From positions 5,128,188 to 5,192,187 of the forward strand of contig OY987249.1 in the NCBI GenBank assembly GCA_963920765.1: a stretch of DNA of 64,000 nucleotides, written 5' to 3'. The notes beneath the pieces were generated by a model. It was not told the DNA's origin. It made no database searches and saw only the letters and a list, made by a program, of their open reading frames with translations. Of the stretch, positions 15,236 to 41,409 are shown piece by piece (position 1 is the stretch's first letter; every line of letters starts with the position of its first letter). The DNA is from Ulota crispa. Lineage: Eukaryota > Streptophyta > Bryopsida > Orthotrichales > Orthotrichaceae. The position numbers and the translations under genes are program-made.

Positions 15236-15279
<44 letters not shown>
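15236..15279. repeat. (TA)n microsatellite, insertion site of the 15.3-kb element
   Basis: About 44 bp of TA repeat directly abut the left terminal inverted repeat of the large element. TATATATA also follows the right terminus at 30622-30629, so an 8-bp target duplication in TA-rich DNA is possible but cannot be proved against the microsatellite. Confidence 0.9.
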
Positions 15280-15282
<3 letters not shown>

Positions 15283-15323
15283 AATTGCTAAAGCCACACC
15301 CAAAATTGCTAACGCCACACCCC
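15280..15323 (+). repeat. Left terminal inverted repeat of the 15.3-kb element
   Basis: Starts GGGAATTGCTAAAGCCACAC, continues with ATTGCTAACGCCACACCCC, and pairs with 30578-30621 (3 mismatches in 44). Internally it holds two similar half-repeats (ATTGCTAAAGCCACACC and ATTGCTAACGCCACACC), as expected for paired transposase binding sites. Confidence 0.92.
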
Positions 15324-15829
15324 CTATAAGTATGTATTTTGCAAATTTAATGTTTTTTTTTTATTCAAGTGGTCCATCATTCATTTAATCAAAGCATTAC
15401 CATCTTCTTGAAAGAAAGAAAAACATTTAATTTTTTTGTTGAACTTTTATTGCACCATTGCTATTTTTTGATATTTTTTTGCTTTAAATATTTCAAAAGT
15501 CTTGTGTTTTTAGTTTCAAATTCAAGCACCTTTAATTTTTTTGAACACAACATTAGAACAAAAAAGATGAAACAAATTTCTTGATCCAAATTTAAAAAGT
15601 CAACATTAAATTCTCAATGACGCTAGCATGCAAGCCTCGAGCGTGTAATTCATGAGCAGGGGCCCAAAACCAGAATTTTGGTTATAGATTTGACTTTTTC
15701 AATTGATGATTGATAATATTTATACTTTGGAGGTGGAAGTTGTTGTCAAAAAAAGTTGCAGGACCTATTACTGCGGGTTAGGGGTTAGACCCAAGATCGT
15801 GTAGGGCTCATGGGTTCATGGTAAACGGT

Positions 15830-16225
15830 TTAAATTTTACAGTTTTATAGGATCAGTTTAAGGTACAACTAATTTGGATTTAGGGTAGAGTTTAGGGTGG
15901 TTTAGGGCTACAGGGTTTAGGAATTTGGGTTTAATCTATGTTGGAGGGATCTCTAATGGACATTTGCAATTCCAAAGCAATTTAGGATTTTAGGGTTTAA
16001 AATACAAGGGTGAAAGAGTGGTTTGGATTTAGGGTTTAGGATTTAGGGATAAGATGATTTTGGATAAAGTCAAATGTACAAGCACATACAGTAGACAGAC
16101 GTAGAGATAGAGGATGGTTCAAACATGTACTAAATTACAAATTCCCAGAGGGATTTTTGGTTCTAGTGTTAGGGTTGCAAACAAAAAGGTACATGTGTAG
16201 TTTAGGATTTAGGGAGAAATCCCAA
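15830..16225 (+). repeat. Degenerate TTTAGGG (telomere-like) motif cluster
   Basis: At least eight TTTAGGG or GGGTTTA motifs are scattered over about 400 bp (for example near 15890, 15900, 15918, 15993, 16030, 16043 and 16206). They lie between the left terminus and the 3' end of the transposase gene. They are not in exact tandem, so this is not a true telomere array. Confidence 0.7.
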
Positions 16226-18182
16226 TACTAGTTTTGCTAACTAGAGAAAATTGGGTACATACAGAAACTCTAGGGTATGATAATCCAATTCCATATAATT
16301 ATTATCCTCAAACTTAGTGCACTAGAACATGCTACAATATGTAGAGACACCTTTTATAAATTAGCGCAAAACAACATGCTAATACTGTAAGGTTGTAGGG
16401 TCATCTACTTTGTGATCTTGATGGAACCTGCCTGTATGAGTGGAGCCTTAATTTTTGAGAAACTAAAGGTTGGCACATGAATAAACTTGTCCTTTTGAAG
16501 ATCCATCTTGCACATGTATCGAAAAAGATAATAGAGGTGCTTGCAGTTTACGTACCGATGTCGACCTCCAATGGAAGAAACACCCATATCCACAAAATCA
16601 GGACAAGTACATGCTGGAAAGTTACCAACAACAATCTTGTAGACATTTCTCTGCTGCTCAAATCTAAGTTCAAGAGACACAATTGCACCAAAACTAGGCA
16701 AAGGCAGCAACATAACTCCAAGTACCTTCCCTCTTACATTTGCACCACTCTCCCATTTATTACGTTGCTCGGGTGTAGGGACATTGGTAACATGGCGCAC
16801 AAAACAATTTTGCCTCTTTGTTGGATATGCATCTGGATTGGAGGGGTTCACTTCGTCAAACACAATGCATTTGAAGTTAGCTGAGTCTCCAAACAATTGA
16901 TGAGGAGATAATATTGGTTTAGGTTGTAAATAGAAACCAACATGTTGGAGCGGGATTGATTCTTCATGTGTGAGGGCTCTCCCTAATAGGACCGGCCAAA
17001 CATCTGGAACCAATGGCTGGTCAATTACCCAAGTTTGTTTAGTGCCTTTCACACAACATTGGATGTCATTAGAGCAAAACCAAAACTGTGCCATAACTTC
17101 ATTGCAAGAATGAAAATCAACCTTCTTTCCATGGTATGTTGGTGCAGGAGTACCCTTCAATCCTCTCCCTACCTTAGCAGTACACTTAATATTTGTATTA
17201 TGCTGCTGCGCATGGCACTTCACAGTTGACTTAGCTTTCAGCCGTGCAATATGCCACCTGGAAGTGTCGCATTCACTTTCATGAGGCACCGTTACGTAGG
17301 GTGAACCCTCATTAGTTGGCAAAACACTTGGCCCACCTTCAGCGTCTACAATAAGTGTAGTTGACCTTCTTTTCACTTGTGGTCTAGAGAAATTAACCTT
17401 GTCCGGACGATGGGAGTCTCCTTCATCTCCTATAGGAGTATCTGGTTTTCTCTTAGAACTTCCAAAAACCTCTTCACCCTCTAGATGCGGAATGCGGGTA
17501 CCAAGATTCTCAGCTCCAGGCAAATGGTTTAGGGCGTCTGCAATCATCTTGGGATCACCACTTTGTCTAGCAGCCTTGAGTCTCAATGCATCCTTATTTG
17601 GACCAGATCTCAAAGCTTGACCATGTAAGTTCGCCCGGATTTTTGTCATCTGCTGCCACGCTCTAATGTTGTTGTTGCATGTGACTTCAAACAAGTTTTT
17701 CCCCCAATTTTCCGACATCTGGAGCCACTTATTGTGTACTGTCTCTGATAAATTGTAGGTAGGCATATATGCCAGCTCATCCACATTCAAAATTCAGCAA
17801 ATCACCATAACAAAATGCACAATTCAATAAACATACCTATACATTGGAATGCACTTATGGATGCTACTAGAATAATCAAAACTCTGTCCAAAACTACTCA
17901 AGCATTGGAAGTACACTTGATACTGCAAATGTTACGGTCAAAAAGAAATTTTTAGAACAAGCATACACTTAGCCTACATTCCAAATAATTTCCAACCCCA
18001 ACAACAACACCTAGAAGGATGCAGTCATAAAAGATCATCAAATTGAATAACTATCACATTTGAAAAGACACCTACTCCACTTGCTGATCTTATGCATATG
18101 CACCAATGATATAGAACTACTGTGATTCTCAGATGGATCTATCCAAACTAGATTAAGTTAATAGGTACGAAGAGAGCCAAAG

Positions 18183-18204
18183 GCACCTTTGTCCACAAAG
18201 GTGC
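18183..18204. repeat. Solitary palindrome in a transposase intron
   Basis: A perfect 22-bp palindrome GCACCTT-TGTCCACA-AAGGTGC centred at 18193.5, inside the 1.2-kb intron (17776-18977). It has the same core as the array at 18598-18685 and the one at 25927-26728. Confidence 0.9.
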
Positions 18205-18597
18205 ATTGACATGCAAGAAGAACCAAAATTTGTCACTTCATCATAACAGCAAGACCACCAATTTAGGTATGATATACTCCAGGAAATAATGAGCATCAAG
18301 TAGCCAATTAAGCAATGATTATTAGGTCTTCATCCCTCCTACAATAAGTACTTTCTGCAACATGAGAATAACTACCAATTGTTCTATCATGCACAATTGT
18401 GCGTTGTGGATCACCTAAGTTCAAAAGGAATAAGCACGCAACAACAACTTAAAGCATTTTCTGAACAGACATCCGTGGTTGAGTAAATGAAAGTCAAGCG
18501 TAGAGCTATCCATCAAATAACAATCAGTAATTTTGGTGGACGAGGTACATCTCCTAGGTCAAACAAAACAAATGTCAAAATCTTGGCCAACCGGGGA

Positions 18598-18685
18598 ACA
18601 CCTTTGTGGACAAAGGTGCTCTGGCCGGGGCACCTTTGTCCACAAAGGTGCTATGGCCAAGAAGCACCTTCTTGGACAAAGGTGC
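18598..18685. repeat. Three closely spaced palindromes in a transposase intron
   Basis: Cores centred at 18608.5, 18640.5 and 18674.5 (spacing 32 and 34 bp), each of the form (A/G)CACCTT-N8-AAGGTGC with inner bases TGTGGACA, TGTCCACA or CTTGGACA. They lie in the same intron as the solitary copy at 18183. Confidence 0.9.
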
Positions 18686-21190
18686 TGCGGCTGGGTGTAC
18701 CGACCGTTAAAAATGTTCCATTTTTATGAGAGAATGAGTACAAAATCAAAAATAAGTTGCACCGGACATCCAAAATTTCGGTCTTCAGGTGATACAAGCC
18801 TACTCTGTATTCAACACAGCCTTGAAATTTGTCTCAATCAATGAATATAACCTATTACAAACTGCAAAAATTTCTTCAGGAGAGGTTTACAACATTAAAA
18901 AGAATTGAAAACTTCTAATGGACAGCAAGTACCAAAAATATAAAGTTTTACATGAAATACTGTAAATATATACATACCATTTGCAGGGGACCTCTCCATT
19001 ACCAATATCAAAAGTGCCAGAATGCCAACCAGTGATTTAGATGGCACAAAGTGTCTTCTGATGCAGCTCTAGATGATAACCACTACAAACAAATAGCAAG
19101 GTACCGTGTGTTTGCATCATCCATCATCTTTGAGTCTTTATACTGTTTGCACAATTTCATATGCTGCTGCTGGAATGACTCTTTGATATACTTCTATGTG
19201 TGTTTCAACATAGAAAAGCTCCAATGAAAAAGGCATGTCCTTTCTCTATTATGCATGACTTTGTCAGAATTTCTCGACCCAAATACAATTCGCATAGCTT
19301 TCCAATTAGCCATGGCACTATCTGCCATGAACCCCTTGAAGTTTGGTTGGGCAATTCCAAACCAAGCCATCACTGCACACAACAACCTCCAAAACTGCAC
19401 TTGGATTTTGGTATTCTCGGATTGCATGTCACATGTAGCAATAGTCATGACCTTCTTATAACCAGAGTCATAAAGATGACATGCCATAGTTGTCCAGTCT
19501 TGCAAGCGTTTGACATGATAAAATGTTATCCAAGAGAGCTGCAAATTACCGCCTACATGCATCCTCTTCACTAGATCGACCCTACTACCAGGACCCTCCG
19601 TTAACATCTTAAACAAATACACCTTCTCCTTCCCCTGACTTGGAAATACATTGTTGTGTATAAACTCCAATAATGACAACCTTTTCATGGTCATGATATT
19701 ATCAATAACGCCTCTGTGATTATTTGACCTTAATGACAAAATCATGTTCCAAATGTTGGAACTACTCAGATATTGGAACCTATCCATTATCTCATTCCTG
19801 CCATTTGCATTTAGCATTGACTTCTTGCCATCACCATTGTGGTACAAATGAGTAGCAAGGAAGTGTTTAGTAGCTGCCAAAGCAATAGCCAAATTGGTTG
19901 CTTGCGGAGTTTTTGCAACTTCTGCAGCTATGAGATTTTGAGTTTGCTTTGCAGAATCCCTATACAATCCTTTGGCCACAGGATGACTGTGGCACCCTAA
20001 ATGTATAGCTGCCCTAGTCATACTGCTATTGTCGCTATAAACATAGTAAATCCAGGCTGAGCACAAACTCACGTAGGTAGGAGACTGTTTGCAAACCTTA
20101 CAGACGACTTGTACAGTCTTTTGGTGGTTCAGTTCCAATTGCAAATGCAAAAGTCATGCTCCTTGACCACTCCGTCTCATTCCTTTAGGTGGCTCTCCCT
20201 AAATAATTACAGTCATGGTTGTCACATGCAAGATGACCAACACAAACAGCCTTGCAGAACTTCAAGTTATTCTCATTATGTATGTTGGTTACCAACTTAC
20301 ACCAAAAGTGTTAACCTTACCTTTTGTCCATCCTTTCCAAATTCTTTGTAGCTGACGCAAATGCACTAGATTTGTAGGGCGGGAGTTCAAACAAAACATC
20401 CCCATCAAATACAGGTGGAAGGAAATCGACACGGTGATGTAAAATTGAGGAATAATCAAGCAAAGACAACTCGTTTCTACTCCGGTGCATAATTGATAAC
20501 TTCCTCAGGTATTCCATTATACTCAGTTGGTTAATAGATGTTGGATATATAGGAGGGCAAGAACTTCCCAAAACTATTTCAATTTTCAACACAATCATTT
20601 GCTCAGACTGCCCAACACCTGTACTGTCACTCGCGCACAAGGATGGTGTGACTCTAGTATTTACAATTGCTTTTGAGGCATCCATATTTGATCCATTCGA
20701 CAACTCTAGGGCTAGAATCAAATTTTCTAGCTTCACAAATTTGAGAGGGATCACAACAAGTGTATGATGTTCCATTGAATTAACAAGAACAACTACAAAG
20801 GAAACTAGAATGTCTGGCATACCAACACTAGACACACTAGACTGATGATGCGCTCTAGGATTTGAGAGGGTGGGATTCACAAAAGGAAGACCATAAACCC
20901 GAAATGAACCAGCATACAAATTCCAAAATGCACCGGAATTGTCTACAGATTTCACAATCGAAATGCAATGAACCAAATTCCCTTCTCTTGATCTTTTCTC
21001 TTCTTCAATTTAAACTAAAGACTCAGAGAAGCAGAAGCAAATGTGCAAGAGATGATTTGATACTCTTGCATGACCGTCATTGTCTATTGGAAGAACTAAA
21101 GGAACTTTGTTTTCGTCATCACGAACAAATGCCATGGCAACACGGGCAGAAGAAAGTACTACTCTACAAAAAACTAAGCATGTGCATAGC

Positions 21191-24130
21191 AATACAAAGA
21201 GAACAAGAAAAAAGCTAACTAAACAAAGTGGTTACATCAGAAGCTGTGATTTGGGATTGGAAATAGAATGACAAAATGAGGACGATTTGATATCCGCACA
21301 ATGGCTGGGGAACCCTAACACACTCGGCCAGTACAAGCCACTGGCCGATGCAAGTGCCAATATACTTTTACGGATAATTAATTATCACATACTAGCGGGG
21401 AGGTTGTGTAACAATTACTAAGAAATGTTGGTGAGATATTGTGTAAGGGCAAAATCCAAGTCATGAAGGTAAGTCTCATGTACAATCCACGCTGTCATTG
21501 CATCAGCCATAAAAAGGTAAAACACATTGGTAAATAGATTAATACTATAGTTATGCAGATTGTGAACTACCAAAACATAATTAACTTGATGGGGAGTGAT
21601 ATTTTGAACTTTTGGTGGTTACTTAACTATAAATTGAAATTTGAACAAAATTTGACAATGATTGAAGGTGTAAGGAAATCTGATAGAGATAAAAATTAAA
21701 TCACCATTGGAGACAGCAATGCATGACAAGATGGCGGCCAAATGGTGTGTTAATTCACCAGTAGTTGGTGGCAGCATCCCTAAAACCTGACATAGTGCAG
21801 CCTCTTTTAAAAGGGTGATACTACAGAATTGATGGCCATCCACCGCATCCAAAATAGATTTGTGCAATTCAATTTTTTGGATTATCAAGTACTAGAAATC
21901 AAATTCATATTTACATTCTGGGATTTTTGTAAGTGCCTTATGAATTTCATGGATAAATGTGGAGGCATTTTTGGTCAGTCAATATCATGTCATTGAACCC
22001 CCAACACCGCCATCTCCAATTAACTCATTGAAGTAGCTGAAATGTTGACACTTGGAGCAATCACCAGAGCACATACTTCACTCAGTCAGCATTTCCCTAA
22101 TTGTCAATCCAAGGGATTTCTTCATAGTTACTGTAAGTTACAATATCCAAAAATACAAATTGAATACTAGATAAGACGAGAGGTCCAAGAGGAAGTTAGT
22201 TAATCTTACTTTTCATTGAGGTATTGCTAAAGAATGAAGAGACGGACAAAGCTGCTGACAAAGATTTTAGACTCTTGTGATAGAAAACATAAAGCATTGG
22301 CTTTTCGGGAGCTTCAAGGAGAATTAGAACATGCCTCTTTGTTTGTTCAAGCACATAGCGTAGAGAAATATATGAACGTGGTCTGCCTTACATCAATCTC
22401 TCGTTCCTCAACTACGGAGTAGCAGAACCTTAAGGTAAGTATTGTTCCTTGATTTTGTTATTATTGGTTCCAAGAACGTTGTGTTAGTTTGATCATAAGT
22501 GAATTGGGAGTTTGGTACTAATCAGATAGACACCATACACACTGCGGTTTCACCTGTTTCATCAAGAAGTGCCTTGTTGTTTGTCATTGCAATTAGAAAT
22601 TGAATAACTAGTGTGTGTTTGATGATACATATGTAAAATAGTTAGGAAGCATATGTTAGACGAGGTAATGAGAGAATTTGCGTACCTCTTAAGTGATAGT
22701 AAACTCAATCTCCCTAGTGAAAAGAGAATGGAAAATGTGCGTCCGAATTGAGGCAACATTGTATGGGTGAATCGTGCGGATGCTTTCCCAACAAAACCAA
22801 AAATCCCAAACACACTTCAAAATTTGTACTCCTTTGGTTCAACGTGCAATGATTCAAATTTGTTGCCCTAATTAAGTATGTATTAGAATCCATGTATGAC
22901 ATCCAAAAAAAGTGTTAGAAACACAAAACCTACAATTGATGTAGAAGGTCCAAGATTTTCCTCGTGACACTCTAATACAAAAAGTCTGTTTATTACTAGC
23001 GTAACCAGCATCACAAAATTTGTTATTTGTCGTGGAGGATTAGAAGGGTAGTGTTCCAATGTTAGTCGTGGAGCAGAGCTCAACCTTCACGTGAAAACCG
23101 CTAGCGGCAATGACGAGTAGTAGAGTCTTGTTCAACCCTCTTGCATGGGGCTACTACTGCAAACTTCTCGCTAGGGTTTGGAAAATGCCATAGCATGAGT
23201 GGAACCACCGTGGCGTCTATGGTAGAGGGGTCACCAGCACCACCCGCTCTTGAGTGACAATGTTTTGAACCTAGCACCACCCACCCTAAACAGTCCAATC
23301 CTTTATGATCCGTTTCATCTGAAGTCAATCGTGTCCTAACCTTGGGCGGTGGTCGTCGTTCTCTGAAAGTTGAGGCGGCCATATTTTGGTGACTCCAACT
23401 TACAAGTTTCGCATTTAGGATTGCGCGCTTGGAACATCCACAACATTAGGTGCCGATTAGTGGGTGCTTGGATTGGTGGCAAACTCTAAAATCGTGTTCA
23501 GAAATAGTTGATCTCCTTGCGCGTGAAGCGGTAATCCACAAAACAAAGCTTTGTTATCCCCTTTTTTGTTTGGTGTTTGCAATGTCATTGGAGACTTTAG
23601 GGCGCAAACTCTTCCAGCCAGCACTTGTTGAATGTGAGATACTGCTACATTGAGATTGGAATTCTGTGCAATGAGAAGCAATCCCTATGTAGAGTGATCC
23701 TGCGCAACTTCAAAGATAGGGAGTCGCCTAGCCTCTAAGAACATGGTTATAGAGTGATAATGTGTAAAGGGGCAAGCTACTACCATTGACATTGTTGTCA
23801 AAGCTTCGTTTCAATTTACTATTCTAATATGCTGATTTTCTTAAGTTCTGTGCAAGTGCATAGAGAGCCAGCAGAAATGGCCAATACGCGGAGGTCGAGG
23901 AGGTAACATGGTTTTGGAGTTAGAGTAGGAGGAGGAATGACCTCACCGTTAGCCAATTATTCCACCAAGTATTACTATAAGTTGAAGCCGCTAATTCTCA
24001 TTATCATTGTACATGTAGACTACGAAAGTTGAAAATATCACATTGGAAGTGAATAGAGTGCTTAGTATTCTGGAACTTAAATTATCATTCGAAATGGAAA
24101 TTCTAACCGTGATGGCCCCAATTGCTGCAG
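21191..24130 (+). promoter_or_regulatory. Divergent intergenic and 5' region of the element's two genes
   Basis: Between the presumed transposase start and the first exon that I can place for the second gene there is about 2.9 kb. A 62-codon frame at 22234-22419 (KLLTKILDSCDRKHKALAF...) could be an upstream exon of the second gene, but no splice link was established. The shared control region of both genes is likely to lie near 21100-22200. No specific promoter motif is claimed. Confidence 0.4.
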
Positions 24131-25926
24131 GGACTGACTACCCTTGCTTCATTGTCTGGCACCACTCTTGATGGTCTCCTTGATTCAGTAGATCAAGAGA
24201 TGCCGACAACAATGGAGAATTTTCTAGCAGCCGGTAGCCTCAATTCAACAACTGGAACTAACAAGGTTGTTAGTTTGGACGATATGGAATAGGTAATATT
24301 TTTTCTGGAACCATAACTTCTAAGTTTATTGAAAATGCAATGGCAAAGGCTAGAAACCTTGATTGCGTTTATGTGGTAGCAAGTTCCTTCAAAAACCTCA
24401 CTCCCTCACGTTCATCGGAATTCACAATGCAGAACTCTCCGGTGAACCTAGGCAAAAATGCACAGACAATCAAGAATACATTTGGGACAGACAATAGTTC
24501 ACAGCCAGACTTTGGTGAGGGAGACAATGAGGACATGCCTGCAGAGAAAGAAGAGACCGGAGAGGACGCAAAACTTATGGAGCAGGACTTGCGTAGGTTG
24601 CAAAAGGTGGATGTGATGAAAATGATTACGAGCTTGCGTATGAAACTGGAGTCTCTCTACCAATTGAGAGTGCCACTCATCAAACTTGTGGGGATGCCTA
24701 TGGTAAGGCCAACGCTTTCATCGAACTTGGTGTTGCTAGAATACAAGTTTGCTCATGGTTATTGGGATGGATCCCCCGTATTCTACCTATCCACGACAAA
24801 TGAAGATGGCGAGACAGCTATTTTAGTGAAGACAAGATGAAGACATGGGGCAAGCTATGGCAGGAAGAGAACTAGTCTTTCCTTCAGTCAATTGTTTGTC
24901 ATCCAGAGCTGTCACATTTGAGAACATAGAAACTATTTGTTTGCGACGGCAACCACAGGCGGCTTGCGTGGATGAAACATATCCAAACGCATCATCCATT
25001 GGACCCCTTGTGGCATATATTGGTCAAATCCATTATATTGGAAATAAAGGGGAGCAATTAGGTTTTAATGGAAGTAATGTACAACATTAACAAGTCAGCG
25101 GCATATTTATTGCATATGATAGTTCTAAATTGAGTGACTGAATGCAATTATTGATTTGATTAGAGTTGATATGATCTTCTTCACTAATTATTTGCATTTT
25201 CTCTGTGGGCACACAGAGGACTTCCACGTCAAGACCAATCTTGTTCACACATTATACCAAGTACTGAAGTACGGCCTGCTACCCATTGAGAAGTTCAAGG
25301 AGTTCTTGCAACCTTCTGAGATGACCCAATGCATGAAGACATCTACCAGAAAAACTTGGTACACAATGCTTGTTGAGGTTCTGGCGTCATTCATATTTCG
25401 GGTGAGTATCAAGTCACTGCTTTTTATAGTTGTTAAATTGTGAGAATTGGATATGCGGGGGTGCTTGGGCAATGATCCAATGAAGAGCCCAGACAACTGA
25501 ATATGGTGTCATGCAAAACTATAATTGTACCATTGCTGAACGCATCGGTCAACAATCTCCTTCAATTGACCATCCTCTGAGCTTAGCGCCAATAGAAACT
25601 GTCGGAAACAAGTTGGGTGAGTTTCCGTGAACATTTTCATTGATTTGTAGGAGCTGCAATTGATGCGCGTCCAACCACAAAATCCAACTCCAGAACAGTT
25701 CTGTGGGTGGAATTTGCATTGATGGCTCTTTCTAAACTAAAACATTAGGGAAGTTGCTTGACATTGAGTATTCAATATAACTAGCGCGGCTACGTATTCT
25801 ACCGTAATTGCCTTCGCGTCCGAGGGTGCTAGGGACGAGTCCACACGCAGCACCAATTTCAATTTCTAGAAGTAGCTTCTCCTCTATATAACAAACAAAG
25901 TCTTTGTTAATTTTTCACAAGTCAAT

Positions 25927-26728
25927 GTGGCGCGTTTAGTGCATCCCCCACGAGCACCTTTGCCGGCAAAGGTGCTTGCGGGGGATGCACTAAACGCGCC
26001 ACTTTGTTACTTGCAATGGAATTTGGTGGAAGGTGGCGCAGTTTGTGCATCCACCTGGAGCACCTTTGGCGGCGAAGATGCTTCAGGCAAATGCACAAAG
26101 CATGCCACCTTCCTTCAATAGGCAACCTTATACGGACAAGCAGCACGTTTAGTGCATCCTCTGGGAGCACCTTCGCCGACGAAGGTGCTTGCGGGGGATA
26201 CACTAAACCCGCCACCTGGTTTATTTGCAGTGGCAGTTTGCGTAAAATGGCACGGTTTGTGCATCTGCTTGGAGCACCTTCGTTGCTAAAGGTGCTCCCA
26301 ACAGATGCACAAATCGTGCCACTTTGTTATTGACCAAGAGCAATTTGATTTGAGTGGCACGGTTAGTGCATCCGCCTGGAGCACCTTTGACGGCAAAGGT
26401 GCTCCCGGCAGATGCACAAACCGTGCCACTTTACGCAAACGGTGTTTGCAAATGACCAACTGGCGGGTTTAGTCCATCCCCCGTGTGCACCTTCAGCGGC
26501 AAAGGTGCTCGTGGAGGATGCACTAAACCTGCCAGTTGGTAATTTGCAAACACAGTTTGCGTAAGGTGGTGCGGTTTGTGCATCCGCCGGGAGCACCTTC
26601 GGCGGCAAAGGTGCTCCCGGCGGATGCACAAACCGTGCCACTCCCTTGGAAACCAAAAGCAATGTGTTTCCAGTGGCTTGGTTTGTGCATCCGCCTAGAG
26701 CACCTTCAGCGGCGAAGGTGCTTCAGGC
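25927..26728. repeat. Regular array of eight long palindromes, period 106-107 bp
   Basis: Eight palindromes sit in the 1.47-kb intron 25402-26871. Centres are at 25964.5, 26070.5, 26177.5, 26284.5, 26391.5, 26497.5, 26603.5 and 26710.5, so the steps are 106, 107, 107, 107, 106, 106 and 107 bp. Each has a GCACCTT-N8-AAGGTGC-type core and arms reaching about 38 bp, with no loop. The first (25927-26002) has only 2 mismatches between its 38-bp arms. Arms are of two types, TTTAGTGCATCC and TTTGTGCATCC. The last unit is truncated on its right side. Reading frames across the array are repeat artefacts. Confidence 0.95.
26433..26562. repeat. Extended ~130-bp palindrome nested in the array
   Basis: Around the sixth centre (26497.5) the pairing runs past the usual arm: ACGCAAAC.GTGTTTGCAAAT at 26433-26453 is mirrored at 26542-26562. 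The neighbouring units 26354-26429 and 26566-26641 are themselves mirror partners, so three units form one larger palindrome. Confidence 0.8.
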
Positions 26729-29700
26729 CTTCCTTGCGGTTCTTGACAAGGACTTTGTTTTATGTTGCAAATGTTTGGTCAATTGGTTTCTAGTTGTGGT
26801 TCATGAATGAGTTTGTTTTTTGGAGATTTAGTTTTCTGATTATTGCGTGTTTTTGTTGTGGAATTTTTCAGCAAGAAGTATTAGCTGCAGCAGATCAAGC
26901 CTTGTGGAGGTTTATTGAAGTGACTCTTGTAGAAGATAGGACCACAAAAGCCATGGCAGATGCTATGCGAGCGGGTGCAAGGGAGAAGGAAGGAAAGCTT
27001 CTACCCAAGACTACAAAGCTGTTGACTGTGGCTAGCCCATTCAACGGCAAGGAGTTCATCCAAGAGGTACAATTCTTTTGTTACCAATTCTATTCTAATT
27101 AAATTTTGATATATTGGTGCATTTTGCTAACATGTGAGATTTTGAGCATAAGGTTGAGAAGCACTACAGCTTGAACAAAGAGGTGGAGATGAGTTTAGAG
27201 AAACTTCAGATAGTGGAGATGTGTCATACTATTGGCTACCACAAGACAAAGTTTCTAAAGTGGTGGAATTCTTCCTTACCCTCTCAAGAAGCCAGGCGCT
27301 TTCCTCCTCCACCCGTTGCTGATGATCCACTTAGGGATTTCCTAGGAAAGTGTGTCTGGTATGCGGGGGTAAGTTCAATGATACTTATTTGAGCTGCAAT
27401 TCTGTACCCCATATGAAGTCTGTTTCATCATATTACTTATTCTGTGAGGTTAGTTGTCATGAACTTATGTCTGTTTTGCTTAATTATTGCAAATTTAAGA
27501 TGTACCACTGTAGCCAGAGACACTACCAGAGTACATTGACGGGTGGCGTTGCAAGATATGGGATCAGGGGTTCCTAACTTATCTGAAGGGACTGCGTACC
27601 TTCAAGAACGGCGATAATTTCAGCACTTTCAAAGGTTCAAAATTTGCTGTTTGACGGGTATTGTTCAGGTATGAGTGTTGATCACGCAATAGTACCTTTG
27701 CACGTGTATTTATGACTTTTTTTTGTCACTATGCATATTTTGTTTTTGTCGTGGCTCAAGTTCATGACTTTATTTCGTTGGTGCTACTGGCTATTGTGTA
27801 CTGCGTTTCTTCACTGTATCGAAACAACTATTCTTTGTATTTACTTTGTAAAATTCAGAGCGTCGGCTGCATTATGATTGCAATTGCGTTTGCGGTAGCA
27901 CGCGAGATTTCTAAACGTGTGTTTGTGTTTGGATTTGCAAAATGCTGTGAGTTAGATACTTTAAGTTGGAACTTCTTGGCAAGGCAGCTGTCACTCGCAA
28001 CTCTCTACCTCCTTTTTTATCAAGTTGGCTAGACTGGACCTCTGCTGAATGTATGTTCACCGCGCACCAACTGAAGACCTACACTACTGCACAATTAGAT
28101 AGCGGTGGCTAGTTCTTAGAGTGTAGTATTGCCTTTACTCACCCTTCAGAGATGGCTCTGCAAAAATCTCTTGAAGGGAAAGGGGTGATTGATTTGGATG
28201 TGCACAAGTTTGCTGGTATGGACGAAGAAACAAAGGCTAAAGCTATTGAAAAGTGAGCAATTGTTAACACAAAGAAGGAATTGAAGGAAGCTAGCATCAT
28301 CAAGCAAAAGGTGCTCAAGGAGGCTGAGAAGATGAAGAAGGCTGCTGAGCGGGCAGTCGAGAAAGAGAAGGGATCAAAAGCTCGAGGAAAAAATTCAAAG
28401 ATAGCAAGTGTTGCAACTATTGACCCTCCACTCCATTCACATTCATCTAGATTCCACATGCAGACCCACTCCCAACAAGCCCTTAAGCGGAAGAGCACCT
28501 TGATTGAAGTCACTGATGAGGAAGATAACATCCTTCAGTGCTCGAATATTATCCCTTCAGATGCTATTGCTGACTCAAATGTGGAGGAGTTGATCTTGAA
28601 CATGTCCATGTCCGATGTGGTGGACAACATGGAATTACAGGGCCCAAATAACTACACCAAAGTTTTGAAGTTTCTGCAAAAGGTATGTGTTCTGTTTGTA
28701 CTCTCTTGTACTTTGTTTTCAGTTAGACCCCCCACTTGCATTTCTCATTCTATATGTCAATGTTGTTTCATGTTTTGGCTACTCTAGGATTTGCTTGTTT
28801 GCGTTTTTAGGTTGCCGGAAACAAGGAGTGGCGCATAGGAGGAGAGCTGGACAGCAACGCTGTTGTAGACCTCCTCCTAGTGGATTGTCCGGAGAATCTT
28901 ACCGTACCTATGATCTCAACATCTGCGACGGATATCCCGCCATGGAACTTGGACATGAAACATGAGCTACTGAATGCAACAATGGCATTTGCCGAAAAAC
29001 AAGTGCATGACAATGAAGCAATGATTGTCTTGCATTTCTACAACGTAAAGTCGAAGTCATGTATTGTTGGATTTTGCAAAATTTATGCTATAGTTGTGCG
29101 AAAGGAGTGGCAGGGAACTAATACACTTCATTTGGCTTCTGCTATTGACTTATCTAACATTGTGAATGCCTTCTGCTCTTTTATAACCCTCTTTTCAATT
29201 TCAAGTTCTCTTTGACTTAGTACTATATGGAACTTTTGAGGACCATTTTTGTTCATTGCAGACTCAGAAATTTGGAGTAACTTTGTTGGTGAAAGACCTT
29301 GGGAAGGTCAGGCACTCAAACTTTGTATTTCATTATATGGAGACTATGGACAAATTGGGTGCCAGAGATGTTGGGCGCAATGACATGCTCCTCAATCTCT
29401 TTGGTTTGAATGATTTAAAAAAAAATGGCTCCATCCCTTGGAGAGGACCGCGAGAGAAGGGTGCCCGATTTTACTAGACCTTTATTGAAGCAGCTTCGAT
29501 GCATGGAGATGTGGTGGTTGATTGTACTGCGTCCATAGGTTAGTTTCAACTTCATTATTGTAATTTTCTCTGGATTTGTAATGAAAGTTATGTGCTTGTA
29601 TTTAATGTTCTAAAATACTTTTTTTAGGGGCGTCCATTGTTGACTGTCGTGCTAGTGACCACAATGTGCTGGCAATGGAGGCGGATGACGCTCTATTTGA

Positions 29701-30200
29701 CGCTGTCCTTCAACTTATGATCTAGGTTTCACAAGCTGCACCTGTTGCTATTTGGACAGAGTCAATTTTGGAGATACCAATATCTCAGGATTCGGATGTA
29801 GCTATTATAGTTCCAATGGAGTTTGTCTGCAAAACTAAACCTAGTAAGTGTTTATCTTATTTTCTATCCTTGTATGGCCACAAGTTTTATTGAGCTTGCT
29901 CTAACATATTATTTCTTGTTTTCTTCTTTCAGCAAAACAGAAGTGAGGCTTAGGAAGAAATCCAAGAGCAAGACCATATCTGATGTATGGATTAGCCCGG
30001 ATAAGACGTACTTCTATCCATCTTATGCACAAGAAATGGGAAATACTTTCGAGTGATTTGGTACAAAGAAGTCTTCTCTAAAAGCCCCTAAATACTCTAG
30101 CAATGTATTAGAGTTCATGGATGTAATGGCAATTGAAGGACGTACGACTTCCTTGGACCATATTACTAGTGACTCTAGTGCTGAGTCTAGTAAGACTTAG

Positions 30201-30577
30201 CATTTTGGATTCTTCATTTATTTAGTGGAGTTACCTATCTACTCAACTTTGTTCATTTCAAGGAAGCTTGGATATCGTTGTTGCACTTAGTGCACACCTG
30301 ATCTTTTTGTTGTTTTTTTATTTTCATACCAACATACTTGAAAACTTGTCTACCATACGGATGCATGTTTATATTGTGTTTTGAAATCTTATACCCCTAA
30401 CTATATACTCTTTTTGTAATCGTTTACACTATTGTCCATCCTCTTAGCCATTTAGTACCCACGGTCATAGGTACCCACTTGTTATTTTCAAGAAATAAAT
30501 TTCACGCTCACAGGCTCACAGGCTTGCCTGCTAGCAACCCTGTTAAATTCTCATAGTTTTTGTTCAAAGAACACATT
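30201..30577 (+). other. 3' region of the element's plus-strand gene
   Basis: AT-rich DNA between the last stop (30198-30200) and the right terminal repeat. It presumably holds the polyadenylation signals. No gene is seen. Confidence 0.5.
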
Positions 30578-30621
30578 GGGGTGTGGTGTTAGCAATATTG
30601 GGTGTGGCTTTGGCAATTCCC
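30578..30621 (-). repeat. Right terminal inverted repeat of the 15.3-kb element
   Basis: Read on the minus strand from 30621 it starts GGGAATTGCCAAAGCCACAC and matches the left terminus at 41 of 44 positions. TATATATA follows at 30622-30629. Confidence 0.92.
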
Positions 30622-30629
30622 TATATATA

Positions 30630-32805
30630 GAGATGGGGACACAAAGATCCATTCCTCAATCACAGCCCTCCCACATCATCAATACTTCACTAAATCTAAA
30701 ATTTAAAATTACATATTTTGAAAGCTCTAGTAATGAGGTGAGAATGTATTGGTTTTAAACTGATGGTGAACTTGTAATGATTTTAAAGCATTTTAATCAG
30801 AATTTGATGCTTTTTCTAAATGATTTTTAATTAACACTTCTCCTAATTTGATTCATGTTAGATTTTAGTGCATTGTGTCCCTCTTTCTATTTACAAGAGG
30901 CTTACTTGAGTTGAGGCAATTTCAAGCTCTAAAAGGTGGTTAAAAGCTAAAAATTTGTTGAGGGAAGACTAAAAGTTGATGAATGTAACGTATTTGATAG
31001 TGCAAAATTGCACTTGGCATGGGTTAAAGGCATGGAGTTGGAACACTCTACTTTTCAAAATTTAACCCATGTTCTCCCCCTTTACAAGCTTTTAAAAGAT
31101 GTTATTGGTTTAAGATTTGATGAAGAATTGATTACATGGAGAGGGTTTGAGTGAGAAATGGATCTTTTTATCCACATCTCCATATGTGTATATATATATG
31201 TATGTGTGTGTGTATATATTTTTAAACAAGCTATTGTTATATAATTTTCTACTTTGGGTTATTAGAAAAGGGGCTTGCATTACTTATAATTCTAAATTGA
31301 TGTGAATAAGTGATATGGTAGTTTAGATTTAAAAAAATTCTAGTACATTTTTTGTAATACATTAAATTTCTTTCAAACTTTTTTTTCCCATTAATGGCTA
31401 CTTACAACTAGAACTTAATAGAAAAGCGTTGTCAATACTAATATTGTATCTGTAGTAAAAATTGTCAGTGACACTCATTTACTAGGAAGGTATAAAATTA
31501 TTGAACACTTTGAATATGCCACTCACAAGGCAACATCATTTAATACTTTTGGCCAATAAAAAGACAAAAAGGAGGATATCCTAGGTCTAATTTTTTTCTA
31601 ATTGGAGCAGTTTTTCTATACCCCATAGTAGTTTGAAGACATGTCCCGGCATTTTTGTACCCTATAGTATAAACAAAATTATAATCTTTATCTCAAATGT
31701 TTTTTAGGCACCCTATCATTTGTTTGCACATAGTTTCCTACTTCTATTGCTCATTGCCCTCTCCAAGTTCAAATCCTTAATTTTAGCCAATTGCTTATTC
31801 TAAAAAGGACACGTATTTGGTATTTTAAGAAATGGGCAAGCATAAATCCCACGACAAGAAAAAATTTCCAAATTAACATGTCCAAATTGACTAAATGTAT
31901 CCAAAATGACAAAAAAAATCTAAATCAACATGGCCAAATGACAAAAATTGTCCAAATTTACACTGTTCCCTTGAGATGGATATCTACCCCTTCATAATAT
32001 CAACCGGATAAGTTTCTTATTACTATTTCCTTTTACAGGTTGATTTTTTATCTTTATTTATTTCTGTCCAATTTTACGTCTCTAAACTTAAAATTTAACC
32101 GGTTTTTTTTTTTTTTTTTTTTTTGCTATACTAACGGGTTGAAAGTACACCAATTGATTGTTCTTTTCAATCAGCGGTTAGAATTTATCAAGAACCCTTC
32201 ATAAATCAATCATTGCTAAAATTGGTTCTTCAACCCTCACTTAATATTGTGGTATATTAGGAAAATTTTGAGCCCTCAAAGAGGCCCCTCCAAAGTCTCG
32301 AAAAGGATCCTAAGATATATACTTATTGCAATAAATAAATCACAAATTTCCTATTTTTGTTCACTTTTTGAGTTTGAAACAATTATGAAAGTTATATTGT
32401 TGTGCCATCCCAATTGGACAAAGACGTGGGTACAAGAGAATCATTTTTTTCTATTTCACTCTATTTGTATGAGTGAAGTACTGAATAGTAACTAGTGACT
32501 TTATACCCCTTTCATTGGAAAGATAATGCAAAGAGAATTTTGGAGAGCCACAAAGCAGGTCAATTAAAGTAGCGGCTTCACAATTTTCAAAACATTCCCA
32601 TTGCACTCACGCTAACCTCTAACCCCTTGTTGTTGTTAGAACCTTTCAACTTCTTCTCTCGAACACCTTTCAACTATATTAGAGATTTTAAGTCCTTCCG
32701 TGAGTTCAAGCGTCTAGCATGAACAAGAATGTCCTCCACAACGGCATGGATGGAAGCTTGTACCAGCTCTCCTTCTTTGAAAATTTGTCTGCAATAGCAA
32801 TACTC
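30630..32805. other. Intergenic, simple repeats only
   Basis: No supported gene. It contains a mixed (TA)/(TG) microsatellite at about 31186-31222 and a poly-T run at about 32103-32124. The remainder is AT-rich. Confidence 0.55.
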
Positions 32806-35662: not shown

Positions 35663-38600
35663 ATGACTCCGCAACGCGAGTATCCGACTTCCATCCATCC
35701 CGTAAGCTCCTTCTCCTAGATCACGCAGCAGCTCAATTCCCAGCTCCATTCTGGACTCAGCCCAATGTAGTCAATGAGTTAATTTTGGCTTGGCGTAACG
35801 AATGTGTGAGCTCAAACTGTCATGTCACAATTTTTCGGCACCCGATGCAAGCCGTGAACGGGTAGACTTACTTGCTTCTCTTCCGAAATGCATGCTTTGT
35901 ATTCTGATTCACCTTATAATGCACGGTGCCTCGCTGATTTTAGATCTGTATGATTCGAAATTTGCTATGGCCTCGGTCCATTGCTGAGAGGCTGAGTCCG
36001 ACAACGAATATGTGTTGTGAAAGCAGGGCTTTGGGGAATTGGGTGTGCCAGTCGTCGGGAGCAGTTCCGACCAGAACCGAACGAGCTTCCGAGACGCAGA
36101 TGGGCAAGGAATCTGGAAGGAGATTCACACTGATTCCGGCGGGCAGTGTAGCAGCGGGGGCGGCTCCGTCGCCACCAACATCCTCACGCCCAGCAGCCGT
36201 GAGCAATCGCCAAGGCCAAGGCCAAGCCACTCTTCTAATAACAGCGCCTACGTGGAGCCGCCGACGGTTCTCACGAGCCCCTCGAACCACGCCGTGGGGG
36301 GTGGTGGGAGATCAATCGCCGTAAACACCACAAGCAGCAAAAACTACTACTACAGGCATGGAATGTTGCGCGGTGGCCCAAAGGTTCCGCATTCCACCCA
36401 AAACGTCAACATTCTAAGTCCCCAGCAGCTGCGACCGCTGGAGAAGAGCCCTAATAAGGGCACGCTGCAACTCCACGTCACCAATCCGCGGGTAACCGAG
36501 GAGCTCACCCCGAGTCCGGAGCAAGGTGCTGCAGGGCCAGCGTATGATCACGATGTGGAACAACTGCATCATACGAGTATGCTTCCACAGGCAGCTGCTG
36601 CGCGATCTCCACACCAGGTGAGCCAGGGACTCAGAACACCATATTCGTTAAATTGGGAAAAACAGAGGTACCATTTTGTACTCCACCTTAAACCCAAAAA
36701 GTTACCTTAAACCAGATTTGAATTGAAGGTATCAGATTTAGTATGAGCCACTAAGATTTTTTCCATTGCAAATTTCTCTTTGCAAGTGAGGGTACGTGTA
36801 CCAAAAAAAACGTTGCAAGCTTGATTTTAGGTGGCCACCTAAAATTTTTGAAAGTCCCAAAATGTATTGTTTTTCCCAATTTAACAAATATGATGTTTCA
36901 GGATTACCTGCTTTTGCTCTAATACCACATGTTTGAATCATGGTTGTCACATTGGGCAAGTCTTGGCTGTTGAAGAGGATGGATGGACAGACTGGTTCTT
37001 CATGCTAAAATCAGGGTGCAAACATCAGGGAGTGATTTTAAGGTTACTTTGGTGCCCATAGACAAAAAAAATTGTTTGTGTTTGCACCTCGATCGTTTCG
37101 TTTGTGTGTGCGTGGGATAGACGGACTGTTTAGGGTTGGTCCAATTTGATAACCATGGTTTGAATTTTCAACTCTACAATGTTTATTATTTAAATTCAGA
37201 TCTTAATGTTGTTATGACTGATGAATGTAAATAGGCTTCAAATCCTGGGTCTCTTCAGTTCTCGACTAGATCTGCGAACTGACCAACCACGCGTAATTAT
37301 GATTTTAAACTTCAGTCGGTTTTGGTCCGTAGCATCTAAACAAGGTCGACGATATATATGGCAGATCCTGAGTGTATTAAGTATCTTAACCAGCGCAATT
37401 TGATTTGAACTTTGTTTATTTGTAATTTTAGACACCGTGATTATGACTAGCGACCTTGCAGGTGACACTAAGTAGCCCCGTGGGGACGCCGATGAGCCCC
37501 TCTACTAAGCCGAAGGAGATGGTGAAACCCAGCCGGGTGAACCAAACGCCTCGACGTCCTTCGGTTTCCAAGGACAGGTCGCCCGATCGCTCATGGAAAA
37601 GCTCCTTTCGGGCGGTGTTGCCGGCCGTGGCGGCGACGGCGACGACCTTGCAGAACCGGGGCATGAGGCGAGAGTTGAACAGTTCGTTCCAAGGAAATAG
37701 TTCTGGGCGAGCAGCCGCTGCGGCGTGTGTGAATCTGAAATCTTCGTCGGTCCCGAGATGGCGCGGTTGTGGCGATAGCGGGGCTCCAGCGATGGCGGCT
37801 CCTGTTCGTGACCACCGGGAAACCTGTCAAGGTAGGTACCAAGCATGGTTGTCACATTGCACCGTGTGTCCATTTGCTTCACCGTTCGCCCAAAATACTC
37901 AATTGAGCTCATGTCTGTGCACTGCAATGGTGATACTCATTGTTGTCAAAATGAAGCTAAAATGTGGATTTAAAATCATATCATGTCATTAAAACGAAGA
38001 ATAGTAATTTGATTCTTCCAATTTTAGATCAAAAGTTCTAAAAAAAATTCTAAAACGCGGATGGACATGTCCACATGTGCCATCTATTTGGTACGTCCGC
38101 TTGTCTTTGTTTGACAAGCAAATACTCTTGGGCAATAGCCAAATCTCTAATGAGACAACTATGGTACCAAGTAATAGACCGGTGGTTTGTGCACTCCCTT
38201 GTGTCCCGAAAATAATAATAATCCAACTGCAGTTTCCATAAGTCTGCAAAAAAGTGTTTGATGCAAAATAAAAATCTTCGGCAAAAGTAAGCTTACTCTT
38301 TGTAGAGTTTGTTCTATCAGCTTAGTTTACGACGCTTGATTCTATGATTGTCGCCATATGTGTAGGTATCAGTGGGCTCCAACAACTAAGAACTAACAAG
38401 TCACTTGTATAATTACTCAGACACTGCTCATTTGTTCGATTGAACTTCTGTTACCTACCAATTCATGCAATTGGTTCTCTGTAAACCATTAAACGGATGT
38501 CAAGTGATATCATCGAATATTATTGCTAACTTTACAAGTGGGGTAGCCTAGAATTGAACCAAAAGCAACAACTAAAGTATCCCAAAGAAAAGTAGGACGG

Positions 38601-41409
38601 TTCTCACTAGAGACTGGGACTTCACATTAGTGTTTGAATAGTCATTAAATATTTGAAATCAGAGCACAAATTTAGAAAAGTCAACTTTTGACTTTGCCCT
38701 CAATAATACATGATTTTCCTGGTTGTTACTTTTGGGCAAGATTTAGCTTTTGGATAGCAGAGGTGGATGAGAGACTGACCTCTTGACCTCTTGACTATTT
38801 AGGGCATTTTTAGGGTTTTTGACCTAAAATAAGAAGAATCAAATCTTGATATGGCTATAAACCTACATTTTGACTTCATGTTGGCAACAATGAGTGTCAC
38901 CAACAAATATAAAGTCTTTTTTTTGTCATTTTTTATCATTTTTGGAAGTCAACTTATAGTTGACTACATCAAATGGACCATGTTCAATTGGGCACTTTGG
39001 GCGTACTGGCTAGCAGACGGACAGTCCAATATGACAACCATGATGATTTGTACACAAATGTCAGTTTTGGTTTGGAAGTAGCTTTCGCGTACGTATGTGA
39101 CTGAAAACGCAGAAAATCTTTTCTCGATTCCCGGTGAGTTCAGTATTCCCTGGTGTTTCCCATGGTTGGACTAGGAAACACTGGGGACTCACTGGGAATT
39201 CTCTCACGGGGAATCGAGAAAAGTTTTCCGGAAATGTGTTTGATCGGTGAGGTGAACATACTTGCAAACTCGTGGATGCAGGAGATCTTTCAGGCGAACT
39301 GGAGCGACCAAGCGTGCCGCATAAAATAGTGGGAGGCAAGCAGAAGCTATCATCATCATCTACCCCGAAATCAAGCTCCTACAACATTTTCAGTCTGCTG
39401 AGCTGGGGCAAGAAAAAGCCGAGTACTGGGATCACCACGGTGTCGACGAAGCGTCAACCGACGGCGACAGAGTCCCGCCTGGAGTACTCCGACGACTACT
39501 TCGGGGCCGCGAAAGCTGACTCCGACTCCATCAAAGTGCTGGACTACACCATCAAGACGTTACGCCACAAGCTCGAGCAAGCCAATCAGAAGCGCGCGAC
39601 GGCACTCGACGAGGTCTGCGCCTTGCAATCCACGCTGGAAGCGTCGGAGGAGAAGTGCCGGCAGTTGACCCGACGGTGCCTGGACTTAGAGCTCCAGTTC
39701 AGCGCGCGCAGCAGCGGCCTCTGGGACATGTCGGGACCGGAGGAGCGAACCAACAACGCCGACACGTATTTTGTTGGTCGACGGAGAGAGCCTAACCCGG
39801 CGCTACACGTCGCCGCTACTCTGTTCCCCCGGCCTTCTCATCAGGAACTACTCACTCCCGAGCAGTTCCTGCAAGTGTTCGAGGACGCCATCGCCAATCT
39901 GCGAAAACTGGCTTCCGCCATTTGTCACCACATCCGAGAGAACGGCGAGTCCGCTACGCAGGTGATCACCGCCCTCCTGGAGCAGCACAAGGTTGGACGC
40001 GCCGTCGCCCGCATGCCCCGCAACGTCACCATCCTCTACTTCGAATCCTTCCTCAACCAGGTATGTACACCAAATAGTGCATTTTGGTTTCCCACACTAA
40101 TGGTTGACCATGATTGGATTTCACATGATTTACAACTTGAACTTTATTTGTTTTTCAGGTAGTTTTGTAGTGGTTGCAAGACCCTTCAAATTTTGTTTTT
40201 TTGCAGTAATTAGTAATTAGTAATTAGTGATGAAAATCACTTTTACAGCAATAAAAGTGTAAGAAATGAGAATTAGTGTGGGGCAACCTAATTGCACTAT
40301 TTGGTGTAGTTGCCAATTGATTCCAAAAAGTTGACACGTGTTGAAGACATGTTTTGTTGTGAATTCTATGCCAAATGTATGTGAATCTAATCTAATGATT
40401 CAATTTCTTCTATGGTCATATATATTAGGGGAAATTTCATGGATACCCTTGAAGTTTGCCAAATTTTCATAGATATCCTTGCTTTTTCAAAAATATCACA
40501 AATACTTTTGGACCAAAAAATTTAGGCATTTGTTTTGTTGTGCATGTCGCAGTTTCCCTTCTTCCTTTATGAGCATGCACAACAAGAAAGAAGTAGATTT
40601 ACACATAAAGGGGAAAAGAAGTGACATGCACAACAAAACAAACGCCTGAAATTTTTTGGTCCAAATGTAGTTAAGGTACGTTTGAGAAATTTCTTAAAAA
40701 GCAGGGGTATTTATGAAAATATTGCAAACTTCAGGTGTATCTATGAAATTTTCCCTATATATTATAGATGTGAGAGGTTCTAGTCGAGAGCTTAGTTGCG
40801 CAAAGGTGAGAGTTTCTTGGCAGTGTGCGAATTGTGCTCGTGAATTATATATATAGTATGCGGTGTGCATGCATGCAGGTCATGTTTGAGAGCTTCGAGA
40901 ACGTGAGCTTCGAGCCAAACGGCGCGTCGTCGATCTTCTGCCCGGAGACGCTGAAGCAGCAGTCGTTGCAGGCGCTCCAGAGCCTGAGAAGCGTGGAGTG
41001 GAGTGCGATCGAGAAAACAGTACTGCTGGGCAAGCCGGGCGCTGTGGTGGTGAACGCGAGCTTCCACAGATTTTTCGTGGTGCGCATGCAGCTCATTCTG
41101 TCGCAGCTGGGCAAGCTGGCGGAGATCGAGCTGTCGCTGGCTCTCATGGCGGCGTTCTTCGACGCCGTGAAGGCCGTCTGGCTCGTGCACCACATGGCCT
41201 TCGCCTTCGACCACCCCGTGTCCATCTTCCGCGCGTCGCCCGCTTCGGAGTTCGACGCGCGCTTCATGGAGCTGGTGACGGCGTTTGAGGAGGACGAGCC
41301 GCCGCAAGTGGGCGTCCGGTCGAAGATCAGCATTATGTTGAACCCGGGCTTCATTGTCAGCCGACAAATCATCAAGTGCCAAGTGTACTGTAGTAGCAGG
41401 GATGAGTAA
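35663..41409 (+). CDS. DUF641-family protein, GIL1-like (five exons, ~769 aa)
   Basis: Proposed CDS: 35663-35701, 36027-36617, 37462-37831, 39282-40060 and 40879-41409; all junctions are GT-AG and keep frame (2310 nt). The first short exon (MTPQREYPTSIHP) is inferred, because the second exon opens at an AG acceptor and has no usable ATG. The N-terminal ~400 residues are Ser/Pro-rich and low-complexity. From about residue 415 there is a coiled coil (LDYTIKTLRHKLEQANQKRATALDEV). The C-terminal half matches DUF641: FLQVFEDAIANLRKLASAICHHI, ILYFESFLNQ, VMFESFENVSFEPNGAS, and the ending GFIVSRQIIKCQVYC. Family members such as Arabidopsis GIL1 and IRKI act in phytochrome-dependent loss of gravitropism and in root receptor-kinase signalling. 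The N-terminus is longer than in Arabidopsis GIL1 (about 470 aa). Family confidence is very high; the start is uncertain. Confidence 0.88.
36635..36898. mobile_element. MITE in an intron of the DUF641 gene
   Basis: AACACCATATTCGTTAAATTGGG at the left is mirrored as CCCAATTTAACAAATATGATGTTT at the right. It is the same family as 913-1222 and 44311-44567. It starts only 17 bp after the exon donor at 36617. Confidence 0.75.
39117..39232. repeat. Intronic hairpin just upstream of a splice acceptor
   Basis: CTTTTCTCGATTCCCGGTGAG near 39118 is mirrored by CTCTCACGGGGAATCGAGAAAAG near 39205-39227, with inner arms TCCCTGGTGTTTCC and GGAAACACTGGGGA. The fold would end about 50 bp before the exon that begins at 39282. 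Confidence 0.75.
40428..40755. mobile_element. Mutator-type MITE with perfect 9-bp target duplication
   Basis: A 328-bp element with ends GGGGAAATTTCATGGATACCC and ATCTATGAAATTTTCCC. Flanks 40419-40427 and 40756-40764 are both TATATATTA. It lies in the last intron of the DUF641 gene, about 120 bp before the final exon. Its sister copy is at 2912-3233. Confidence 0.9.

Follow-up and report, generated by a model that had tools for sequence, protein, structure and literature searches.

Our study concerns a 64,000-nt stretch of the genome of the streptophyte Ulota crispa (assembly GCA_963920765.1, contig OY987249.1, positions 5,128,188-5,192,187 of the forward strand), called the window throughout. 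It holds a copy of a DNA transposon in which the transposase gene is divergently paired with an accessory gene. The accessory protein is about 1,110 residues long and almost certainly joins an N-terminal domain of ParB/sulfiredoxin type to a C-terminal N6/N4 DNA-methyltransferase fold. We show that the transposase and the accessory gene have stayed paired through deep divergence, and that the accessory protein has been under purifying selection. The best overall explanation, to which we give a probability of about one half, is that the partner of the transposase is a putative element-specific DNA-binding factor.

The transposon family and its paired genes

All genome searches covered the 275-Mb genome of the window, and every copy count is a lower bound. 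The LEAFY SAM domain (PF01698) has six matches above the cut-off in this genome and none in 14 control genomes, in keeping with a streptophyte. The exon encoding the methyltransferase fold (methylase exon) of the window matched 61 places at E <= 1e-4. At E <= 1e-3 there were 146 matches to the ParB exon of another copy, L038, and 150 to a methylase exon from a database relative. One transposase open reading frame (ORF 19194-20153) gave 126. Merging left 127 ParB, 109 transposase and 61 methylase places. A transposase match lies within 15 kb of 89 of the 127 ParB places and is divergent and upstream in 88 of these, at a median distance of 5.1 kb; random placement gave a mean of 2.0 and a maximum of 7 in 200 trials (coordinates of all listed matches, with assumed lengths for contigs 2, 5 and 7). 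A partnership with the transposase had been proposed from the letters of the window alone (the sequence-only reading), and the 88 divergently paired places bear it out. A ParB match also lies upstream on the same strand at 49 of the 61 methylase places.

The accessory gene is not a chance assembly of open frames. At the protein level (tblastn), open frames of the window match those of five further 8-kb genomic copies collinearly along the gene, the repeat arrays of one intron excepted, and of 1,116 places in the alignment of the window and L038 conceptual proteins, 726 (65%) carry the same residue. The window copy itself is a pseudogene, a dead member of the family. Its ParB exon is frameshifted, and the gene contains eight or more in-frame stops (EEN*SFL, LRT*KLF, GSN*VLM, GG*FLE, EK*AIV, FY*TFI, LMI*VSQ and FE*FGT), so conclusions about the accessory gene must draw on the family and not on this copy.

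Across the family, pS exceeds pN (the proportions of synonymous and nonsynonymous differences) in every pair, for methylase and ParB exons alike. The median ratio of nonsynonymous to synonymous rates (dN/dS) among pairs with finite dS is 0.20 for the methylase exon (30 loci) and 0.15 for the ParB exons (33 loci). These figures are indicative, since most pairs have saturated dS (175 of 435 and 74 of 528 give finite values) and the pairs share ancestry. Such limits count against the best overall explanation, as does the decay of many copies, 29 of the 33 ParB loci having at least one stop in the compared exons. The accessory gene was functional within the element through most of its history. Alternatively, it could be unused passive cargo, acquired a single time from the host or a foreign source in the manner of Pack-MULEs; the window copy is indeed broken, and Pack-MULEs carry genes, according to PMC12477816. 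Against such an origin stand the pairing fixed over deep divergence, the low dN/dS and the presence of the motif DGNHR in 83 of 101 database relatives, and we find it barely credible.

Alignment of element copies places a sharp right end at 30542 and the left end at 15615. Both ends agree with an empty site: two intact copies of a miniature inverted-repeat transposable element (MITE), L084 and L085, hold TTAAATTCT once, and the window holds it on either side of 15615-30542. A second copy of the element, on contig C6, measures 15,290 bp and has ten identical bases on both flanks. The sequence-only reading had drawn a 15.3-kb element, and those bounds were wrong. The inverted repeats near 15280 and 30621 (49 of 52 positions identical) were rejected as element ends, being the two ends of one repeated MITE that the element has split; 15279-15616 is the start of a repeat with 85-94% identity at 39 other scored places (40 of 1,916 first candidates were scored).

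By its motifs and ends the element fits a DNA transposon like the Mutator-like elements (MULEs). The earlier assignment to this type keeps the support of the 9-bp duplication, the SWIM-type zinc motif and the CxxH motif, and lacks that of Pfam, where the broken transposase pieces gave no MULE match. On the minus strand, the SWIM-type motif CTCPDF..NCKHLYYLF lies in ORF 16405-17793, ADSAMANW and CLFHW lie in ORF 19194-20153, and the N-terminal part of the transposase lies in ORF 20317-21009. In the alignment the SWIM motif is present in the window and in copy L082, and CLFHW or CLLHW in several transposase copies. A SWIM-type CxC..CxH and a CxxH after an ADxAxANW stretch are what we take to be marks of MULEs. 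KDZ and Sola1 were also considered as carriers; the 9-bp duplication speaks for a MULE, and Sola1 elements make a 4-bp target-site duplication.

The folds of the accessory protein

The DGNHR segment LFVCDGNHRRLAW is encoded from 24933 on the plus strand, as the sequence-only reading had it. That the segment belongs to a ParB/sulfiredoxin fold is upheld by the predicted structure, in which matches to ParB, Noc and KorB score above those to sulfiredoxin and SbnI, and is below significance for sequence profiles alone. Of the signature known as P-motif G-x-x-R or DGxHR, the arginine is kept in 90 of the 101 relatives. These relatives form one of three alignments used here, and were taken from 164 proteins (120 of them listed) found with a ParB alignment of 17 of 33 genomic rows picked by eye. 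The methylase alignment comprises 21 of 29 rows, eight having been omitted for misplaced joints, frameshifts or stops.

Several searches weigh against the ParB assignment. Foldseek gave no PDB match at E <= 0.001 for the predicted domain, and the ParB alignment profiles found no ParB match among PDB sequences. The curated ParB-superfamily profiles stayed below significance, with DndB at 0.0057 and DGQHR at 0.019 (two of 17 members each) and PF14072 at best at 0.013 (one of 17). Neither DUF1015 (best 0.057, weak, three of 101 relatives) nor the PHROG ParB-like family (best 0.21) was significant. Scanned against Pfam as a single sequence, the L038 conceptual protein matched no family at all, a result that says little about the HTH and C-terminal dimerisation domains of canonical ParB. 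As the curated profiles are not significant, we file the domain under the ParB fold and not under a ParB sequence family; on the predicted structure it has the ParB/sulfiredoxin (ParB-CTPase) fold.

The same fold superfamily includes small-molecule enzymes, and the DGNHR domain might be a sulfiredoxin-like or serine-kinase-like member of that kind and not a DNA clamp. The structure matches include sulfiredoxin and SbnI, and the weak DUF1015 matches point the same way. Sulfiredoxin has a cysteine in its GCHR motif. All 101 relatives have N at that place, ParB, Noc and KorB outscore both enzymes, and a partner domain of methylase fold on a transposon suggests a role on DNA, which together make an enzyme of this sort very improbable.

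The C-terminal domain follows the order proposed in the sequence-only reading, VVDLLLVDCPENL, HGDVVVDCTASIG and then, past an intron, ASIVDCRASDHNVLAMEADD, and its assignment to the N6/N4 methyltransferase fold is confirmed by profile matches. Against 177,635 PDB sequences, the 21-row profile ranked two DpnA-type adenine methyltransferases at the top (E 2.8e-4 and 3.1e-4), followed by two unrelated chains and then by CcrM at 1.3. Eight of the 21 members match PF01555 (best 2.1e-4), up to 14 match PHROG methyltransferase families (best 2e-6 and 1.5e-6) and six match CcrM. The ParB alignment, a natural control, matched no family named methyltransferase. One methylase relative searched alone against PDB sequences gave no match, and an AF2 model of half of the domain from three rows had a mean pLDDT of 41 and was not used. 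Motif IV precedes motifs I-II in a collinear alignment with 5hfj, the motif IV part alone contributing just 4.3 bits.

The catalytic loop is altered throughout the family. At the place of DPPY in 29 aligned copies, the first D is kept in 27, the second residue is C in 27 and the third P in 18; the fourth is E in 20, K in eight and D in one, never an aromatic, and the following N is invariant. DCPENL as such occurs in nine of the 29 and in the relatives P0121 and P0122, and the divergent copies L073, L074 and L075 have DMPEN, DMPKG and NMPEN. In motif I (FxGxG), S stands at the first glycine place in 22 of 29 copies, and the second glycine, at the exon joint, is seen in 11 of 29 rows. Since the change is common to the 29 copies, P0121, P0122 and L073-L075, it is not the decay of a single copy, and the caution first voiced about departed catalytic motifs is strengthened. 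Because motif IV lacks its aromatic, we speak of a methyltransferase fold and not of a proven methyltransferase.

The protein might still be an active enzyme that adds methyl groups to adenine-N6 or cytosine-N4 of the element encoding it, either marking that DNA as self or interfering with host silencing, a role suggested for the Ectocarpus relative in PMC12477816. Its motifs follow the beta-class order, DPPYN nearly always retains its first D and its N, the methylase exon is under purifying selection, and that paper predicts N4C or N6A activity for a similar protein. Set against this are the E, K or D at the aromatic place in every copy (E in P0121 and P0122) and the serine in motif I, and we consider present-day methylation rather unlikely.

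Relatives in public protein databases were found through the alignments. The L038 conceptual protein alone returned nothing at E <= 0.01, so alignments were needed; the ParB alignment returned its 164 relatives at E <= 0.1, with uninformative names and several on contigs of hundreds of kilobases, and the methylase alignment returned three exon fragments. P0121 reaches at best 51% against the whole Ulota genome, and 123 proteins reach at best 63% against the fetched loci, none at 90% or more. As far as tested, the relatives thus appear to come from other genomes. Five of them (P0061, P0067, P0070, P0082 and P0097) have WDGNHR-like motifs (FIWDGNH, YVWDGNL, FIWDNNH) after an N-terminal LRVNSVQ-like stretch, which suggests a second deep branch of the family. 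Scans with the ParB alignment for a donor gave 111 pattern matches in viral contigs and 27 in prokaryote genome contigs, none of which was confirmed.

Palindrome arrays and candidate roles

One intron of the accessory gene in the window holds eight palindromes of the form AGCACCTT-N8-AAGGTGCT, with 0-1 mismatch and a spacing of 106-107 bp. Four more lie between the transposase ORFs, presumably in an intron, and the 64-kb window has no further such palindrome at up to two mismatches beyond these twelve. Genome-wide, the pattern has 254 forward matches at up to one mismatch, as against one for a reversed control, and over 33 loci there are 58 palindromes with perfect arms, as against 7.0 in shuffles. 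The first 50 listed of the 254 sites, all on contigs 1-5, form 18 clusters. A methylase match (those listed on contigs 1-5, plus three from the search with the window exon) lies within 12 kb of 13 clusters and within 5 kb of 11, where random placement gave a mean of 0.21 and a maximum of 3 in 2,000 trials. In all 13, two of which are in one element, the palindromes lie 5' of the methylase exon. Given this tie, the palindromes belong to the accessory gene or to the element. They may serve as sites to which the ParB-like protein or the transposase binds, or the family may carry them as a repeat of no use.

As an element-specific DNA-binding factor, the accessory protein would bind a nucleoside triphosphate (NTP) and probably clamp on element DNA through its ParB-type domain, perhaps at the palindrome arrays. 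Its methyltransferase-fold domain, with E, K or D in place of the base-stacking aromatic of motif IV, would more likely recognise or hold DNA than methylate it. The protein might mark out element DNA for transposition or shield it from host silencing. That its role is DNA binding without methylation is a tentative view, somewhat short of even odds.

Not all observations favour this picture. Palindromes occur in eight of the 30 fetched ParB loci, with four or more in six (the window locus included), and many copies have none in the stretch fetched. Five of the 18 clusters have no listed methylase match within 12 kb, and the conserved D-C-x-x-N loop could reflect a remade site with altered catalysis instead of its loss. 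The unlinked clusters, at C1:18086714, C3:10249694, C4:13556415, C5:6574779 and C5:15062279, may be remnants or parts of other elements.

Two other roles draw on the same arrays. The protein may be a second transposition protein that acts on internal or subterminal repeats and assists the transposase, with no relation to silencing. The fixed divergent pairing, the two positions of the palindromes in the window copy and their genome-wide link to the methylase exon are all in keeping with such a helper, which leaves the retention of two nucleic-acid-enzyme folds unexplained and is in our view unlikely. A partition-like system has also been considered, in which an NTP-gated ParB-type clamp with a converted methylase domain marks self, the 24-bp palindromes being putative parS-like loading sites. 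The clamp would load there and spread on element DNA, blocking host silencing or guiding the transposase, its D-C-x-x-N loop having been refashioned into an active or reading site. The linkage of 13 of the 18 clusters to the methylase gene has raised this proposal from a slim chance to one that is still decidedly improbable.

Transposon-borne DNA-modification genes allow the conflict between mobile DNA and silencing to be observed directly. Our results add to the algal ParB-methylase genes one in a streptophyte, on a MULE-like carrier and at more than 100 recognisable places. Should the domain have ceased to methylate, the current view of such proteins as epigenetic writers would have to be revised. 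The methylase-linked arrays provide a concrete, testable candidate binding site.

Layout of the window copy and comparison with known systems

Exon joints of the accessory gene were read by eye from the printed sequence as GT-AG.

Table 1. Features of the transposon copy in the window (positions in the window).
Feature	Position	Strand	Basis
Left 9-bp target-site duplication TTAAATTCT	15606..15614		doubled in window, single in L084 and L085
Transposon copy, 14,928 bp, short imperfect terminal inverted repeats (CA..GCTAGC..GCAAGCC)	15615..30542		copy alignments and empty site
Transposase gene, broken and split	16405..21009	-	ORFs and genomic copies
Four palindromes between transposase ORFs, 0-2 mismatches	18182, 18597, 18629, 18663 (18182..18686)		palindrome search
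First conserved exon	24125..24292	+	tblastn against L038; donor read by eye
Exon with most of the ParB/sulfiredoxin domain (VPLIKL..VRPTL .. LFVCDGNHRRLAW .. MEVMYNINK); frameshift and three stops in window copy	24427..25093	+	tblastn, DGNHR, fold
Exon closing the ParB-domain region (HVKTNLVHTLY..KTWYT), 5' joint tentative	25192..25401	+	tblastn
Intron with eight palindromes	25402..26871	+	palindrome search
Intron palindromes	25953, 26059, 26166, 26273, 26380, 26486, 26592, 26699 (array 25953-26722)
Middle exon (QEVLAAADQALW..FIQE)	26872..27066	+	tblastn
Middle exon (VEKHYSLNKEVEM..FLGKCVWYAG)	27153..27368	+	tblastn
Middle exon (PETLPEYIDGWRCKIWDQGF..), borders approximate	27518..27668	+	tblastn
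Long middle exon, charged coiled-coil-looking stretch, 5' border approximate; two stops in window copy	27951..28682	+	tblastn
Methyltransferase-fold exon, motif IV place VVDLLLVDCPENL	28811..29161	+	profile; relatives P0121, P0122
Methyltransferase-fold exon, motif I place HGDVVVDCTASI at its end	29262..29538	+	profile
Methyltransferase-fold exon, remaining motif I and motif II place (GASIVDCRAS..VLAMEADD)	29628..29843	+	profile
Last exon, stop codon TAG at 30198-30200	29933..30200	+	tblastn, copy alignment
Right 9-bp target-site duplication TTAAATTCT	30543..30551		same empty-site comparison with L084, L085

Around the element, the split MITE consists of 15280-15614 and 30552-30621, its left end being up to 100% identical over 66 bp elsewhere in the genome. 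It adjoins a MITE-like repeat that has inverted ends and spans some 560 bp (about 30625-31184), 86-91% identical to 39 other scored places. Further out lie an inverted repeat at 12482-13379, with 294-nt arms that are 96% complementary, and open frames at 36021-40162, one of 303 aa, with weak Pfam matches below curated cut-offs, several of these to coiled-coil families; the open frames are possibly a host gene.

The sequence-only reading had held that a gene joining ParB and methylase domains would be unusual as the partner of a plant MULE-type transposase. The gene is as described, and the combination was already on record in algal transposons (PMC12477816). The closest case there is the brown algal Sola1-1_Ec32 of Ectocarpus, a 21.5-kb transposon with an accessory protein of 1,104 aa that has ParB-like and N4C/N6A methyltransferase domains and is encoded on the strand opposite the transposase (Dinatale et al. 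2025, PMC12477816); the authors predict N4C or N6A activity for it. Going by that description, our element is alike in having a single protein with both domains, of nearly the same length, opposite to the transposase, and differs in its size of about 15 kb, its 9-bp duplication and its streptophyte host. The same paper attributes similar proteins to green and red algal transposons (Iyer, Abhiman and Aravind 2011; Petroll et al. 2025 for Bostrychia) and names giant EnSpm elements for red algae. Among the best-ranked papers of the literature searches it was the one found to describe the combination in a eukaryotic transposon, and we found no land-plant case there, which is weak evidence of absence.

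Phage and prophage proteins also fuse the ParB-CTPase fold to an N6_N4 methyltransferase, as reported by Kaljevic et al. 2025 (PMC12704722), where NTP binding was seen for 11 of 28 purified ParB-like proteins and a change of the P-motif arginine abolished it. The main text of that article mentions neither plants nor transposons. Those fusions resemble the accessory protein in carrying both domains in one protein on mobile elements; unlike them, ours has about 450 residues between the domains, introns and a motif IV without its aromatic. DndB and DGQHR proteins are the nearest curated sequence families to the ParB-type domain, below significance, and DndB is termed ParB-like and nucleotide-binding in PMC12704722.

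Comparable cases are known in other eukaryotic transposons. Fungal DNA transposons carry TET/JBP genes (PMC12730594), dinoflagellate and charophyte retrotransposons carry DNMT genes, and DIRS elements carry Dam-like methylases (PMC5890265). These are likewise DNA-modification genes on eukaryotic transposons, with unrelated enzyme families or carriers. To our knowledge, neither a ParB nor a methylase fold has been reported in the anti-silencing proteins of plant Vandal MULEs. Those proteins are described in PMC12730594. Relative to the algal cases, the gene described here appears to differ in its carrier, in its host group, in the alteration of the catalytic loop throughout the family and in the palindromes linked to it.
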